NCBI RefSeq assembly: GCF_022531965.1
Contig: NZ_CP092831.1
Coordinates: 5,775,240-5,839,239, forward strand
DNA from: Paenibacillus peoriae
GTDB taxonomy: Bacteria > Bacillota > Bacilli > Paenibacillales > Paenibacillaceae
DNA: 64,000 bases
Direction: 5' to 3'
The position numbers and the translations under genes were made by a program. This document shows positions 2,869 to 9,008 of the stretch, in pieces. Each line of letters begins with the position of its first letter. Positions within the stretch are counted from its first letter, which is position 1. The notes under the pieces are model-generated. The model was given only the letters and a program-made list of their open reading frames with translations. It was not told the DNA's origin and did no database searches.

Positions 2869-3702
2869 TCACAATGGAATGCTCTCAGTTCCGTATTCCT
2901 CAAGACACTGTATTAGCATCTGTCGATATTGGCTGATTTGTTCCGCTGTCGCTGACTCCCGTAATGATTCCAACAATGCTGTACATTTCTTAAATTGACC
3001 ATCATTGCCCGACTGATCAGCTAGTTGCATCGCCTGCACAGTAAGCCCCACTGCGTCCTGTAATCTGCCGCACTTCCGATAGTACAAAGCCAAGCGATAG
3101 CAGTAACTATAATAGTAGGATACGTTCTCTGCGTCTTCATAACTCTCGAATTCATCAATCTGCTCTGCAAACGTATGTAAAATATCTCCTACATCCAAAT
3201 GATACATAAGCGCTGCCTGTAATATGGTATTCAGCCCCGGTAATATTTCCTCTAGATTATCCTGCAAAAAGGCTACGTATTCCTCGATCAGCTCTATATT
3301 TCCAGACAAAATATCTACTGCATATAAATTAGTTTTGGCTAAAAACCTGAACTCCTCAACAACATGATTTTCTTCTTCCTTTAAATCCTCCATCCATCCC
3401 AGCTCAGCATACTTATAGATACACTCCCTTGCCTGCTCATATGTACCCTGGTTCTGGTGAGCCATTCCACTCATCAGGTGACTGAATCCAAAATAATATA
3501 CCAACGGACGTTCTAAATTGACATGCGGGATGAGCAATTTCATTGCTTTATGATACTGTCGTTCTTCATAGATACGCTGTACACATTGGTACAAAATATC
3601 TGCCGTCTCCATCACCTTCTTCCAATTTCCAAAAGCCACGGCCATCTCTAACATTTCAACAATGATGTCCGGTTTGAGCGATTTCAGGATAGAAGTTCGC
3701 AA
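2869..3702 (-). CDS. TPR-like helical protein, possible truncated regulator
   Basis: The 277-residue all-helical protein contains several TPR-like helix pairs, for example around YEQARECIYKYAELG and GRLQDAVGLTVQAMQLA. The best start is the TTG at 3702, eight bases after AAGGAGGA; a GTG at 3741 extends the frame but has no ribosome site. In Paenibacillus, similar helical regions are found behind an N-terminal XRE helix-turn-helix in signal-responsive regulators. No DNA-binding domain is present here and none lies just upstream in frame. It could be an independent TPR protein or the remnant of a larger regulator. It is divergent from the XRE gene at 3887. Function unknown. Confidence 0.7.
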   Translation of the reverse strand: MRTSILKSLKPDIIVEMLEMAVAFGNWKKVMETADILYQCVQRIYEERQYHKAMKLLIPHVNLERPLVYYFGFSHLMSGMAHQNQGTYEQARECIYKYAELGWMEDLKEEENHVVEEFRFLAKTNLYAVDILSGNIELIEEYVAFLQDNLEEILPGLNTILQAALMYHLDVGDILHTFAEQIDEFESYEDAENVSYYYSYCYRLALYYRKCGRLQDAVGLTVQAMQLADQSGNDGQFKKCTALLESLRESATAEQISQYRQMLIQCLEEYGTESIPL

Positions 3703-3886
3703 AGAGGGTTCCTCCTTTAAAATGATTAGGATAAAAAGCACTCGCTCTTAATATATTCCTTTGTGAAACTCCAAATAAGTAGTACAATAAATTAACTTAA
3801 TCGCAGTTTTTTCAATAAATTTTACCGCCTTTATGTCTCTGCTAATTACATCGATACTCTCCTAACCTTTAGGAGAGGTGGCTAAT

Positions 3887-4225
3887 ATGACAAAATTACG
3901 GAATTCAGTTGGAGAAAGAATTAGAGCAATTCGGAAGGCTAAGGGATTAACACAGCAACAACTTGCGGAACTTTCAGGATTAGATGATGCATATATCGGA
4001 TCAGTAGAGCGTGGCGAAAGAAACTTTTCGATTGATACCTTGGAAAAGATTTTAATCGGATTGAATGTCTCTGCTTACTCTTTGTTTTACAATTCCGATA
4101 ATTATATTGACTCTATACAGATGAAAATAATAGATAATTATAGTTCAATTATTAGCGAACTAAGCCCTAAACAGGTCCAAAACTTAAATAACATCATCAG
4201 TGAATTTAGAAATGCATTTAAGTGA
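3887..4225 (+). CDS. XRE-family transcriptional regulator
   Basis: The 112-residue protein has a Cro/C1-type helix-turn-helix over roughly residues 8-62, with VGERIRAIRKAKGLTQQQLA, SGLDDAYIGSVERGERN and the usual IDTLEKI. The C-terminal tail is short and may dimerise. ATG at 3887 is preferred over the GTG at 3878, because AGGAG at 3871-3875 lies too close to the GTG. The gene stands 110 bases upstream of the NACHT-pentapeptide gene on the same strand and shares its AT-rich composition. It is therefore likely to repress or activate that gene and itself. Regulators of this size often accompany defence or restriction genes. The regulatory link is inferred from position. Confidence 0.88.
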   Translation: MTKLRNSVGERIRAIRKAKGLTQQQLAELSGLDDAYIGSVERGERNFSIDTLEKILIGLNVSAYSLFYNSDNYIDSIQMKIIDNYSSIISELSPKQVQNLNNIISEFRNAFK

Positions 4226-4283
4226 AATTTATTTTGAAATAAATATATTAATAGTGGACTTATTTTCATCTTAAAATAAAAAC

Positions 4284-4301
4284 CGATAGGTAATGCTATC
4301 G
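4284..4301. promoter_or_regulatory. Short inverted repeat ahead of the NACHT gene
   Basis: CGATAG and CTATCG are separated by six bases in the 110-base gap between the XRE gene and the NACHT gene. No T-run follows, so it is unlikely to be a terminator. It could be the operator of the neighbouring XRE protein or an RNA hairpin in the leader. Nothing beyond symmetry and position supports this. Confidence 0.35.
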
Positions 4302-4335
4302 TCTGACGATTCTTTGTATTCACTTACAAATAAAA

Positions 4336-7300
4336 ATGAAAATTCTCAATATTTTCGAGAAGATGGGTGCGGTAAAAATGCAAGATGTAAATCTTCATAT
4401 TTTCAAGAAAAATACAGATGCTCATTATACTCACCGTGGGTTCTTATTTCAGTATGCACTTACGCTTGAATTATGGCTCACCAACTATCTTAGTAAAAAT
4501 GACATAATAATTTATTGCGAAGTCGAAGATGATATTAAAACAATAGATATTCAATCTTCTAGCACTAATTATAAACAAGCAAAGTGTTATTCTAATTCAT
4601 TGTCACTAAGTGATAAGGGAGTCCAGAAATCCTTATACAATTTTTTCCTATTATATTTACAATCAGGAGAAGTTTATTTTGATTTTATTTCTTCTTCTAA
4701 ACCCTCTAGTAGAGACAAACTACTGAATGAATGGATGAAAAATATGGGTAGCCTGTCTCAAGATTTACTTCTTAATTGTGAAGAGTATATTTATACTACA
4801 ATTGGCCTGATTCTAAAAGAAGAATCAGAGAAAGCGCTTTTGAGAATTCATACAAATTCTGAAGTGAAAATTGAACTTAAAAACTCATATCAAAAAATCA
4901 AATTTTTATTAGATCAATCCGAAGTCCGCAAATCCTTTATAGAACGAATATCCTGGACTTTTATGGAGCTAGACCCTCAAGAGAGTGTAATCAATATAAT
5001 AGCCAGTACTAAAACACACATTTCCAAACTTGAAAGAAAATTACCTACCCAACTACTTTATAGCAGACTTCTCACTGAGGTAGTTATGAAGTCTGCAAAC
5101 CCTGATCCAAAAGCTAGATACTTGGACAATAATTTATTTGGTGAAATTCTGGAAGAAACTATAATGGAGATGCATTCTAATACTAATTCAGAACTGATCG
5201 AATTAATTGGTAAGTTTACATATGATTTGAATAGTATAAAAGTGGATGTATCTGATATTGACAATAAGGTAAACTATCATCTAGAGGAATATGGTATTAA
5301 GAGGCTTCATTCCGAATTTATTGAATATTCAAAAAATAAATTAAAAGAGTTTTCTGAACCTATTTTTAACGAAAACTTTAACTTATTTGATATTTTCGTT
5401 TTACCTGAACACAAAAGTTATGAATTCAAAGGCGAGTTTAAAGATCTAGAGGAGGATCTAGGTATTAAATTCAAATCAAAAAAGAAGCTTAAAGACATAT
5501 CAGTAACCGAGTTATTTATTACTGAAACGATCATGGATGAAACAAAGAAGCCGATTTTTGTACATGGGGATCCTGGCGTAGGTAAAAGCACTTTCTCTAA
5601 ATTTTTATTCTCCACTTTTATCGAAAAAAAACCAGATATAATAACAATTCATATTGATTTGAAGAGATTTAAATTTGTGAATAATTTCAAGATAGCTATC
5701 AAGCAGGAGTTTGAAGAGATTTTGCCTTCCTTCAAACTAATCCATTTAAAGAAATCTCGATTCTTAATCATTTTAGATGGTTTTGATGAACTACACCTAA
5801 TTAGTGATGGACAAATGGATGATTTTTTAATGTCATTAAATGATTTTCAAAGGGATTATAGCAATGTGAACATTGTCTTAACAGGAAGAACAATTGTTTT
5901 TCAAGAATACTTAACATTGATCCCCAAGGGGTCTATTATAGTAGAAATTAAACACTTTTCACCACTTATGATTATAGAATGGGTTAAAAAGTGGTCAAAA
6001 CTTAAAAATTATAATAAAGAGCTATCTACTGAAATAATAAACATAAATAAACATATGGATTATTACAGATTTAATAATGAGGATGATGATTCTTTAAGTA
6101 ATAATAAGACTAGTATCAGTAATGTTGAAGAAGACCTCTTAGTAAGCTTACCTCTGTTTCTCTATCTTATTTGTACAATGCTATATGAAGATAATGATTT
6201 AAATCTAGAAGAATTAAATCAACTTGAAAAGTGGCAATTTTATAAGAGACTAATGGACTGGACATGTGCTACATCTAAATTCGATAATTCATTTAATCCG
6301 TTTCAAAAGCATATGGATTTTGAAGCCCTCTCAGAATATAAAAGAACATTTAACAAAAATATTTCTTTGTCTATGTACAAATCCAATAAATTCCATATAA
6401 CAAATCGAGATATCCAGAACAGAGGATTACTACCTAAGTTTTTTGAATCTCTAATTTTAAACAGCGAAAATTTAATTAGTTCATTTATTGTCTTAAACTA
6501 CATGAAGATTAACCACGAGACTGATATCAATGAAACTGCTTTTGAGTTTGTTCATAAAAGTTTTTATGAATATTTAGCCGCAGAAGCCTTGCTTGATATA
6601 TTACTTTCTTTAGCAAATATTAATGAACAAGACGAAAGTTTGAAGGCTCACTTTTATACCAGCTTCTCAGGATTCAAGTTATCCAATGAAATTTTACAGT
6701 CTTTCTTGATACCAATGCTCGGTTCAATTGAATCAGAGAAGTTAAGATTAATCTATAACAACTTGAATCATCTATACAATAACTATGTGAAAAATCATCA
6801 ATTTTTAAATGAGGAAAACACTGCATTTCTAAAAAAATTTTTCCTCCAATATCCAGGAAAAGCAGATAATAAAATAACGTTAGAATCTAATGTACTTTTC
6901 TCCCTTCTTAGACTGTTACCGTCTATTGCCAAATTATTAGGATTAACATTTAAAGTTAATTTATCTGACTTATCTAATCAACTTCGGAAAGTTGTACAAT
7001 TCTCTAATGATGTATTCACTGTAGATGAACTACGATTTGACTTGGTTGATTTACAAAATTCAGAAATAACTAATGTTAGTTTAGTGAAAATAGAGTTAGA
7101 AAGTTCCAACTTGTCAAATTCTATTATTAAATTTTCAGATCTATCTTTTTCAAATTTGAATAGTGCACTTCTTTCTAGTATAAATATCCAATATAGTGAC
7201 TTTGAAGGGGCCAACTTTGATTTTGCAGAACTGAAGTACGCAAATATAAGCGAAACAAACATGATAGATACAAGTTTTGTTGGAGCGACCCTAACAAAAA

Positions 7301-8244
7301 TTAAATTATATAACTCTGATCTAACAAATTCAGCATTGGATCATAGTTATTTAAGTAATTCAGAACTTATTCAATGTGACTTAAGCGACGCTGTAATGGA
7401 CGATTCTCATATTGAGGACACTATAATGATTTATGTCAATCTATCAGGGGCAAGCATGCAAAATAGTGTGTTCATTAATGTCAATTTATCGAACTCATTC
7501 TTATCATATTCTCAATTATGTAGATCAAAGCTCCAACACTCAAAACTTACATCATGTGACCTACGATTTGCTGATTTATATGGGGCCGATTTGAGCAACG
7601 TAGATCTGTCAAATGCAGACCTTTCAAATGTTGATCTCACAGATGCGAATCTTGAGAATGCAATACTGACTGGTGCTAACCTTACAAACTCAACTTTGTC
7701 TAATACCAATCTAAGAGGATGTAATTTGACTGGATGTATTTTTAACAAAGTTACTATAGAGAATGTAGACTTCTCATACTCGATATTGGATTCTACTGAT
7801 CTAACAACATCTCAACTTAATAACTGTATTTTTTATAAAACTAGTATGAGATATACAAGAATTAGCACTCAAGATTTTTCGAATATATCAAACATGAAAT
7901 GCGTAGATTTTTCTTTTAGTACAATCTCTTTCTCGAATTTCAATAATGTAAATTTAGAGGGTAGCGATTTAAGCAATACAAAAATCTATTCATGTTTATT
8001 TGAGAGTGCAAACTTTAACAATTGCAAATTTCATGCTACTAAATTGAAATGTTGTAAAATGCCATTAACCACATTTTTGAATTCAAAAGTTATAAGTACT
8101 AACTTTATTTTCTCCGAATTATTCGAAGCTAATTTTGGAAACACCGTACTTCAAAATGTACGGTTTAAAAAAACAAACTTGTCCTTTTCAAACATATACA
8201 ATCGAAAAAAAGATGATAACTTCCTCAATGTACAATACCTATAA
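4336..8244 (+). CDS. NLR-like antiphage candidate: Cap4-like nuclease - NACHT - pentapeptide repeats
   Basis: This 1302-residue protein appears to have three parts. (1) Residues about 25-200 begin THRGFLFQYALTLELWL, then CEVEDDIKTID and YKQAK. This order of acidic residues and QxK matches the active site of the DUF4297/Cap4 dsDNA endonucleases. (2) A STAND NTPase of NACHT type has Walker A GDPGVGKSTF near residue 413, Walker B FLIILDGFDEL near 480 and the characteristic FVHKSFYEYLAAEALL near 740. (3) From about residue 900 to the end run dozens of pentapeptide repeats, such as ADLSNVDLSNADLSNVDL. This is the architecture of bacterial NLRs (bNACHT/Avs), in which the C-terminus senses a phage product and the N-terminus cuts DNA. 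ATG 4336 lacks a clear ribosome site; ATG 4378 is an alternative. The gene is strongly AT-rich and follows an XRE regulator. Confidence 0.85.
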   Translation: MKILNIFEKMGAVKMQDVNLHIFKKNTDAHYTHRGFLFQYALTLELWLTNYLSKNDIIIYCEVEDDIKTIDIQSSSTNYKQAKCYSNSLSLSDKGVQKSLYNFFLLYLQSGEVYFDFISSSKPSSRDKLLNEWMKNMGSLSQDLLLNCEEYIYTTIGLILKEESEKALLRIHTNSEVKIELKNSYQKIKFLLDQSEVRKSFIERISWTFMELDPQESVINIIASTKTHISKLERKLPTQLLYSRLLTEVVMKSANPDPKARYLDNNLFGEILEETIMEMHSNTNSELIELIGKFTYDLNSIKVDVSDIDNKVNYHLEEYGIKRLHSEFIEYSKNKLKEFSEPIFNENFNLFDIFVLPEHKSYEFKGEFKDLEEDLGIKFKSKKKLKDISVTELFITETIMDETKKPIFVHGDPGVGKSTFSKFLFSTFIEKKPDIITIHIDLKRFKFVNNFKIAIKQEFEEILPSFKLIHLKKSRFLIILDGFDELHLISDGQMDDFLMSLNDFQRDYSNVNIVLTGRTIVFQEYLTLIPKGSIIVEIKHFSPLMIIEWVKKWSKLKNYNKELSTEIININKHMDYYRFNNEDDDSLSNNKTSISNVEEDLLVSLPLFLYLICTMLYEDNDLNLEELNQLEKWQFYKRLMDWTCATSKFDNSFNPFQKHMDFEALSEYKRTFNKNISLSMYKSNKFHITNRDIQNRGLLPKFFESLILNSENLISSFIVLNYMKINHETDINETAFEFVHKSFYEYLAAEALLDILLSLANINEQDESLKAHFYTSFSGFKLSNEILQSFLIPMLGSIESEKLRLIYNNLNHLYNNYVKNHQFLNEENTAFLKKFFLQYPGKADNKITLESNVLFSLLRLLPSIAKLLGLTFKVNLSDLSNQLRKVVQFSNDVFTVDELRFDLVDLQNSEITNVSLVKIELESSNLSNSIIKFSDLSFSNLNSALLSSINIQYSDFEGANFDFAELKYANISETNMIDTSFVGATLTKIKLYNSDLTNSALDHSYLSNSELIQCDLSDAVMDDSHIEDTIMIYVNLSGASMQNSVFINVNLSNSFLSYSQLCRSKLQHSKLTSCDLRFADLYGADLSNVDLSNADLSNVDLTDANLENAILTGANLTNSTLSNTNLRGCNLTGCIFNKVTIENVDFSYSILDSTDLTTSQLNNCIFYKTSMRYTRISTQDFSNISNMKCVDFSFSTISFSNFNNVNLEGSDLSNTKIYSCLFESANFNNCKFHATKLKCCKMPLTTFLNSKVISTNFIFSELFEANFGNTVLQNVRFKKTNLSFSNIYNRKKDDNFLNVQYL

Positions 8245-8279
8245 ATTAATCTCTATTGGCGGGATAGTTCAAAACAACA

Positions 8280-8321
8280 TTAGAATGCTAGTAGCATGCA
8301 TAGACACCTCTAGCATTCTAA
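8280..8321. repeat. Perfect 12-bp inverted repeat after the NACHT gene
   Basis: TTAGAATGCTAG at 8280-8291 and its exact complement at 8310-8321 are separated by 18 bases. The repeat lies 36 bases after the NACHT stop codon and 20 bases before the end of the rlmH relic. There is no T-run, so it is a poor intrinsic terminator. Its place at the island/rlmH junction makes an integrase or element-end site possible. Confidence 0.6.
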
Positions 8322-8340
8322 GAATTTCAGACTCTAATCT

Positions 8341-8798
8341 TTACGGTTCATAGCTATTAATTTTACCGCCGAAAAATCTGCTTTACCAGCAACAGCCGCA
8401 TCGTTTGATAGCGCTAGTTCATCTTTCCAAAGCATAGCTTCTATTGATTACATTTAATCTCATTATCCACTAGCCCGTGGCTGCCACCGATGACGAACAC
8501 CACATGGCTGCTTTCTTAGGCGCCGGAGCAATAGTATTCACTTGCAAACCCCTATTATACCCACATTTCCCCATACAAGGTGAGTGCTATACCTCTAGCT
8601 TAATGTATCCCAAAATCCGTTTGCCTTCCTTATCCTTAATGATCTTCACCTCAGCATTACTTAGGGTATCTGGTGTCTTTCATCAGAATTATTATGATTT
8701 AAAGCTCGAGATAAGGCATAAGACGTTTTGCATATTCTGCAATCCCTTGTACCAAATACTTTTCTTTTAATTGTCAGTCCAATAATCTGAATAAGCAT
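8341..8798 (-). pseudogene. rlmH: Decayed second copy of rlmH
   Basis: On the minus strand a start ATG at 8798 opens MLIQIIG, like the intact copy, but the frame is soon broken. Pieces resembling RlmH follow in changing frames: [53 protein letters not shown], and near the end KIN followed by EP. Several single-base shifts and stops are present and a central part is worn away. Homology to the intact rlmH ends at GAACCGTA, so the last codons (Tyr-His-Lys) are lost. The copy is diverged, not a recent duplicate. Synteny puts this relic at the ancestral rlmH position (htrC - CxxH/CxxC gene - rlmH), and the functional copy is at 2211-2690. Confidence 0.85.
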
Positions 8799-8945
8799 AC
8801 TTCCTCATTAGTCCCGCTCTAAGTGTAAACAATATAACTCCCATACCTCCGATTGTCCAAAAAGATAATGAAACTCATACAATCTGTTACACTATTTTCT
8901 ATGTAACCCCCTCATGATCCAATGTCTACCTACAAAAAGCAAACT

Positions 8946-8972
8946 AAAAAAAAGAGCACCTAATAGGTGCTC
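8946..8972 (-). terminator. Terminator of the AraC-DinB genes
   Basis: GAGCACCT (8954-8961) pairs with AGGTGCTC (8965-8972) over a three-base loop. On the minus strand the stem is followed by eight T. It lies 36 bases past the DinB stop. Confidence 0.88.
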
Positions 8973-9008
8973 CAGCTCATCTCCATCTTTTTACAGCTAT
9001 ACGCATAC

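Follow-up and report, generated by a model that had tools for sequence, protein, structure and literature searches.

The window analysed here is the final 64 kb (64,000 nt) of the single 5.84 Mb contig (NZ_CP092831.1) of Paenibacillus peoriae. At positions 4336–8244 (+) it holds a single intact open reading frame (ORF) of 1302 aa, with an alternative start perhaps at nt 4378, coding for an NLR-like protein in which a Cap4/DUF4297-type nuclease is followed by a NACHT STAND module, then by a helical linker and lastly by a beta-helix of pentapeptide repeats (PPR); homologue profiles and predicted structures were concordant, and we regard this domain architecture as practically certain. The nuclease domain covers residues 30–285 (nt 4423–5190), with a candidate active site formed by E62/E64/D66 and Q81-x-K83, and is joined to the following module by a linker (residues 286–385, nt 5191–5490) whose limits derive from the alignment and the models. 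The STAND module as a whole (residues 386–745) comprises the NACHT ATPase (residues 386–560, nt 5491–6015; Walker A at nt 5566–5592, Walker B at nt 5770–5793) and a helical part (residues 561–745, nt 6016–6570), which we take to be a winged-helix region and which ends with an HKSFYEYL motif. A helical linker (residues 746–894, nt 6571–7017) then leads to the PPR beta-helix (residues 895–1290, nt 7018–8205), where 14 regular coils (residues 899–1178) are followed by a register break and more coils. All these features lie on the + strand.

Pfam analysis of the protein retrieved a strong pentapeptide array, together with sub-threshold matches to NACHT (23.8 bits, cut-off 26.7) and Cap4_nuclease (PF14130; 22.1 bits, cut-off 26.2, profile positions 6–200 of 200 aligned), so that the assignment of the latter two domains rests on fold and homologues. 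Five homologues carrying the N-terminus showed the same domain order: P0003 (65% identity), P0004 (61%), P0005 (44%) and P0006 (39%), aligned over 99% of the query, and P0016, which is 38% identical over most of residues 330–900. Cap4_nuclease scored above its curated cut-off in 5/5 full-length homologues and NACHT in 3/5, and in the genome search the NACHT score of the window protein itself reached 28.0 bits, above the cut-off. The model of the nuclease domain displayed a Cap4-type restriction-endonuclease fold, and Foldseek, run with the model of residues 331–1302, retrieved NLRP9 (E 2.5e-7) and also NLRP2. The signature CExExD...QxKCY was present in six of the seven sequences compared, including the window protein, with the K conserved in all seven; the acidic and Q-x-K residues are those with a role in related nucleases. 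By analogy with bNACHT25 and Avs proteins, the domain is probably an active nuclease. An earlier model-made reading of this DNA from its letters alone (hereafter, the sequence-only reading) had described a three-part NLR-like protein, and this observation was confirmed: the protein is real and unusual, all the motifs named in that reading are present, its Cap4/DUF4297-type N-terminal nuclease was borne out by the homologue profiles and by a fold of the restriction type, and its NACHT ATPase by the profile scores and the NLRP matches.

Related NACHT+PPR cores carry differing effectors. In the genome G215, from the same family, a protein similar to the window protein in the NACHT (64%), the PPR (48%) and also the helical parts has Trypsin_2 at its N-terminus (28.3 bits versus a cut-off of 27.6, the N-terminus being scanned alone), and its gene starts 9 nt after a metallo-beta-lactamase (MBL) gene matching PADLOC Avs1a at 7.5e-98. 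In a seven-row tree of the STAND region, rooted at the midpoint and with P0016 on a long branch, the G215 protein joined P0001 (the row of the window protein), P0003 and P0004 with 99/99 support, and the Cap4-fused P0005, P0006 and P0016 stood apart, so that an exchange of effectors on this core, in either direction, is likely; the PPR tree does not settle the same fork. Among more distant NACHT+PPR matches, the precomputed Pfam labels indicate a caspase in P0009 and a trypsin in P0011. The nuclease module, in turn, was found at 36% identity in G247, where it is the LmuA-type gene that opens a Lamassu-type operon also containing matches to LmuC and LmuB. In P0008 the N-terminus is related too, although its Cap4 score of 19.7 bits stays under the cut-off, and is combined with NA-iREase1, a different NACHT and beta-propeller repeats.

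Some further loci are recorded here as side observations. A macro-domain gene (L161:12166–12912, −) adjoins the Lamassu-type operon of G247. Two NACHT-PPR proteins from Clostridiales metagenome-assembled genomes (L063:9521–12079 and L069:9683–12169) have N-termini that look PD-(D/E)XK-like by eye, without a Pfam match there. In G052, of the same genus, L147:5685–8618 (−) codes for a 977-residue protein with NNH3, a P-loop ATPase and pentapeptides, for which no NACHT match is listed.

With about 400 residues, the PPR array agrees with the definition of a pentapeptide-repeat protein as a quadrilateral beta-helix built of eight or more contiguous repeats (PMC8145042). Within the 14 regular coils, conservation was higher at the inward positions (0.51 and 0.60) than at the outward ones (0.36–0.40), as expected. 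In 6/6 homologues conservation was lower in the PPR than in the NACHT module, which fits a sensor role, and we lean towards the PPR as the ligand-reading part. The net charge of the PPR was −3.9 per 100 residues; 41 related PPR proteins had a median of −3.3 (range −13.6 to +2.4), and one of them, the Cohnella orthologue, is near neutral (−1.6). The sequence-only reading had suggested that the beta-helix could mimic DNA and so detect a DNA-binding phage protein; this idea gained no special support, the charge being no more than typical of related PPR proteins. The repeat consensus A(D/N)LXX is moreover acidic in itself, and we hold the DNA-mimic explanation, in which the helix would bait such a phage protein, to be quite improbable.

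Another possibility leaves the system the same and makes the PPR rod a rigid scaffold or spacer, with sensing entrusted to the helical segment 746–894 or to a host factor. It draws on the description of PPR domains in some multidomain proteins as scaffolds only (PMC8145042), on the activation of bNACHT25 through DnaJ (PMC12169576), on the lack of a resolved conserved ligand face on the PPR and on the lower conservation of the helical segment compared with the PPR in P0003 (63% versus 67%) and P0004 (60% versus 64%). It is nonetheless unlikely, as the PPR is located C-terminally, where bNACHT STAND proteins carry their sensors (PMC12169576), and stays below the NACHT in conservation in every homologue compared.

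To see how widespread the arrangement is, the best 80 of 173 relatives from the genome-collection scan were taken and ORFs were extracted from all 80; 41 of them, hand-chosen because they combined a long ORF with what looked like a PPR array, entered the domain scan, so that the 41 found with PPR are a lower bound for the 80 loci. PPR was found in 41/41, NACHT in 40/41, NNH3 in 34/41 and Cap4 in one, from Cohnella, which also gave the sole PADLOC match at 1e-5 (1/41, LmuA); 33 of the 41 are cyanobacterial by record title. These counts indicate that NACHT+PPR is a broad arrangement, and its union with a Cap4-type nuclease is rare among the relatives examined. A pentapeptide helix in place of the usual sensor is thus no peculiarity of this protein: NACHT proteins with such an arm are frequent in related loci, most of them from cyanobacteria, and generally begin with a helical NNH3 region. 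The full protein occurred in 1/75 genomes of the genus; in the family, 4/394 genomes matched at E 1e-15, own genome included, one of the four with the nuclease only; in the class and phylum samples (398 genomes each, overlapping) the own genome alone matched. No plasmid, phage or virus carrying a close relative was found: none of the 193 matching plasmid records or the 173 matching phage records has a single place covering 80% of the query, and the 12 rows listed for each match mainly the PPR; six viral contigs matched at 23–35% identity, one spanning NACHT+PPR and five part of the NACHT.

Within the papers searched, mostly openly accessible ones and with the original bNACHT and AVAST papers outside the set, neither a Cap4-NACHT-PPR protein nor different effectors on one NACHT+PPR core were reported, nor was any function of NNH3-NACHT-pentapeptide proteins. 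PMC7159879, PMC8195603 and PMC10853773 name PPR alongside STAND/NACHT domains among the components of conflict systems. PPR arms on NACHT proteins have precedents, as do nuclease effectors on NACHT or Avs proteins; it is the combination that seems to be new.

The NLR gene (29.7% GC) is low-GC foreign DNA, horizontally gained, beside rlmH. The approximate insert (nt 4072–8947) comprises the C-terminal half of a helix-turn-helix (HTH) gene, the NLR gene and an rlmH remnant. When the rlmH regions of 17 of 74 relatives were compared, the DNA on both sides of the insert aligned to the window, with the insert missing, in 13; as for the remaining four, one stretch ended too early and three more distant ones match around rlmH, not at the tetratricopeptide-repeat (TPR)/HTH genes or the right flank. 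The left alignment ends inside the HTH gene (nt 4031–4072), and the right alignments start at nt 8947–9007 (9112 in one). The intact rlmH (nt 2211–2690, −) is the conserved anchor of this variable site and not part of the system. The XRE-type HTH regulator (nt 3878–4225, +) is apparently chimeric: its first half matches the HTH that relatives have in their chromosome, and its second half is different and AT-rich, with GC dropping from 38.8% to 27.9%. The HTH gene and the TPR gene (nt 2869–3741) were considered as operon partners of the NLR gene and rejected as being chromosomal, since their counterparts stand at the same place in relatives without it; the second half of the HTH gene, the sole differing part, may have arrived with the NLR gene, and a regulatory link is possible.

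Located 3' of the NLR gene is a decayed second rlmH (nt 8342–8800, −; clearest at 8366–8773), with 11 stops and 60.6% nucleotide identity to the intact rlmH over aligned columns, which includes a match to the rlmH 3' end at nt 8342–8364. This copy suggests that another rlmH once had the NLR gene as cargo at its 3' end; a second, partial rlmH is also present in G018 and G053. Such heavy decay next door could speak for the NLR gene itself being a non-functional relic, with an inactive nuclease or ATPase kept by chance. We give this explanation hardly any weight, as 1302 codons run without a stop at this GC content, similarity to homologues extends over the full length and the motifs are intact.

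SCC-like composite islands (SCC, staphylococcal cassette chromosome) at rlmH are in print for Paenibacillus pinistramenti (PMC10061031). An SCC-like element would have its own serine recombinase and terminal repeats that match the rlmH end; in our insert the decayed rlmH includes the match to the rlmH 3' end, but no recombinase was seen among the ORFs. The NLR gene could be an element-borne conflict gene, not mainly anti-phage, serving to kill or keep out rival plasmids or SCC-like elements at rlmH: it adjoins the decayed copy beside the intact rlmH, and serine recombinases lie near rlmH in some relatives (L140, L145). The lack of a recombinase among the ORFs seen argues against it, and so does the finding that the 19.0–23.9 kb read around each of the relatives in Cohnella, G215 and G247 contain no rlmH; we consider it improbable.

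On the 3' flank of rlmH in this genome are genes for a protein kinase, an unknown product, a TIR protein, ThsB and ThsA, among others. The kinase gene (nt 863–2086, −), directly 3' of rlmH, had its best PADLOC matches in mad6 (3.8e-31) and PD-T4-6 (3.6e-28), for the most part across the kinase domain; Thoeris ThsA (macro type), ThsB and the extra TIR gene (L129:5192–7839) belong to the same rlmH-side island but lie outside the window, about 3.4–6 kb beyond rlmH. This side varies in the genus (L130–L146, L148), with a type I restriction system in L130, a CD-NTase in L133 and methyltransferase and helicase-like genes in L145, for example. Eight of ten hand-picked proteins from six relatives matched a PADLOC model at 1e-4, two weakly or partly (L131, L144), a count not to be read as a rate; by eye, other relatives have genes resembling those of transporters and dehydrogenases at this place. 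We consider a defence role very likely, as context supports it well, namely the Lamassu operon in G247, the Avs1a-type neighbour in G215 and Thoeris near rlmH. The defence setting and Avs/bNACHT-like logic of the sequence-only reading are therefore upheld, and homologues were not consistently in non-defence contexts, the Cohnella, G215 and G247 relatives having defence-type neighbours.

As for known systems, the nucleases of Cap4, DUF4297-HerA, LmuA (Lamassu) and Hachiman have the nuclease fold in common with the window protein but work with SAVED, HerA, SMC-like or helicase parts and not with a fused NACHT. No SAVED match was found in the protein by Pfam, no CD-NTase among the 13 neighbouring proteins (Pfam; 8 of them also by PADLOC) and no LmuB or LmuC among the 8 PADLOC-scanned neighbours (for the kinase, among the best 25 of 33 matches), so it was assigned neither to CBASS nor to Lamassu. 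Avs3 and Avs1, where the sensor is of the TPR type, differ in that the window protein matched none of the Avs1–5 STAND profiles in PADLOC and ends in a PPR beta-helix; it may work like an Avs though not filed as one. The mostly cyanobacterial NNH3-NACHT-pentapeptide proteins likewise have a NACHT and then a C-terminal PPR, but a helical NNH3 in place of the nuclease, and HetL, QnrB1 and MfpA are PPR chains of 180–237 residues versus the arm of about 400 fused to an NLR here. The layout is that of bNACHT proteins, with the NACHT between an N-terminal effector and a C-terminal putative sensor region. Of the same build are bNACHT25 and bNACHT32, with an N-terminal PD-(D/E)XK-family nuclease, a central NACHT and a C-terminal sensing part; bNACHT25, however, has a helical NCH1 C-terminus, which is not among the matches listed for the window protein, and it is described without mention of a pentapeptide arm (PMC12169576).

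Taken together, we interpret the protein as a single-gene anti-phage (or anti-mobile-element) abortive-infection system, a STAND sensor-nuclease of bNACHT/Avs-like type, with a probability of roughly 0.6. At rest the NACHT module would be closed; the PPR beta-helix, by itself or together with the helical segment next to it, would recognise an infection-specific protein or state, upon which the NACHT would bind ATP and oligomerise, bringing together the N-terminal Cap4-type nuclease domains; DNA would then be cut, and the infected cell would die or stall before phage release. The nuclease activity, oligomerisation, outcome and ligand in this scheme are drawn by analogy from bNACHT25 and Avs proteins: bNACHT25 and bNACHT32 (clade 6) are associated with DNA degradation upon MS2 infection (PMC12169576), and cleavage of phage as well as host genomes is described for the nuclease effectors of Avs proteins (PMC12931631).

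Several results weigh against this interpretation. PADLOC recognised no described system for the protein, its sole match being mad8 at 2.6e-4, and the protein-scan Cap4 and NACHT scores lay under the Pfam curated cut-offs. The Foldseek TM-scores of Cap4-type families were low (0.28–0.47, query-normalised; root-mean-square deviation 7–12 Å), and the sequence comparison of the nuclease module with solved structures gave nothing meaningful, only six rows of unrelated proteins at E 0.28 and weaker. The Q of QxK is replaced by R in P0005. On the PPR, no ligand face could be named (conservation spread over the outward faces 0.146, permutation p 0.10), and the nuclease was less conserved than the PPR in 3/5 nuclease-bearing homologues (P0003, P0004, P0005), so that rapid divergence does not set the PPR apart. 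Finally, a Cohnella AlbA_2 (Schlafen-type) gene (L004:9046–9996, +) ends 4 nt before the homologue start, making a partner possible there. The main interpretation of the sequence-only reading, supported in part, stands.

More tentatively, at a little short of even odds for the whole, PPR beta-helices may form a distinct class of sensor among bacterial NLRs, the NACHT+PPR core being an exchangeable cassette whose rod binds a conserved phage protein; the cassette would be set on a Cap4 nuclease here, on an MBL+trypsin (Avs1-like) output in G215 and, in distant proteins, behind caspase, trypsin or NNH3. In bacterial NLRs the effector is often predictable and the stimulus hard to find (PMC12169576), and a STAND core and PPR arm with two outputs, a nuclease and an MBL+trypsin pair, is a natural experiment separating sensor recognition from effector action. 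According to PMC8145042, an explicit biochemical function of PPR proteins was known in 2021 for two examples only, gyrase inhibitors and SV2C. If the PPR arm does sense a ligand in immunity, that would be a further one.

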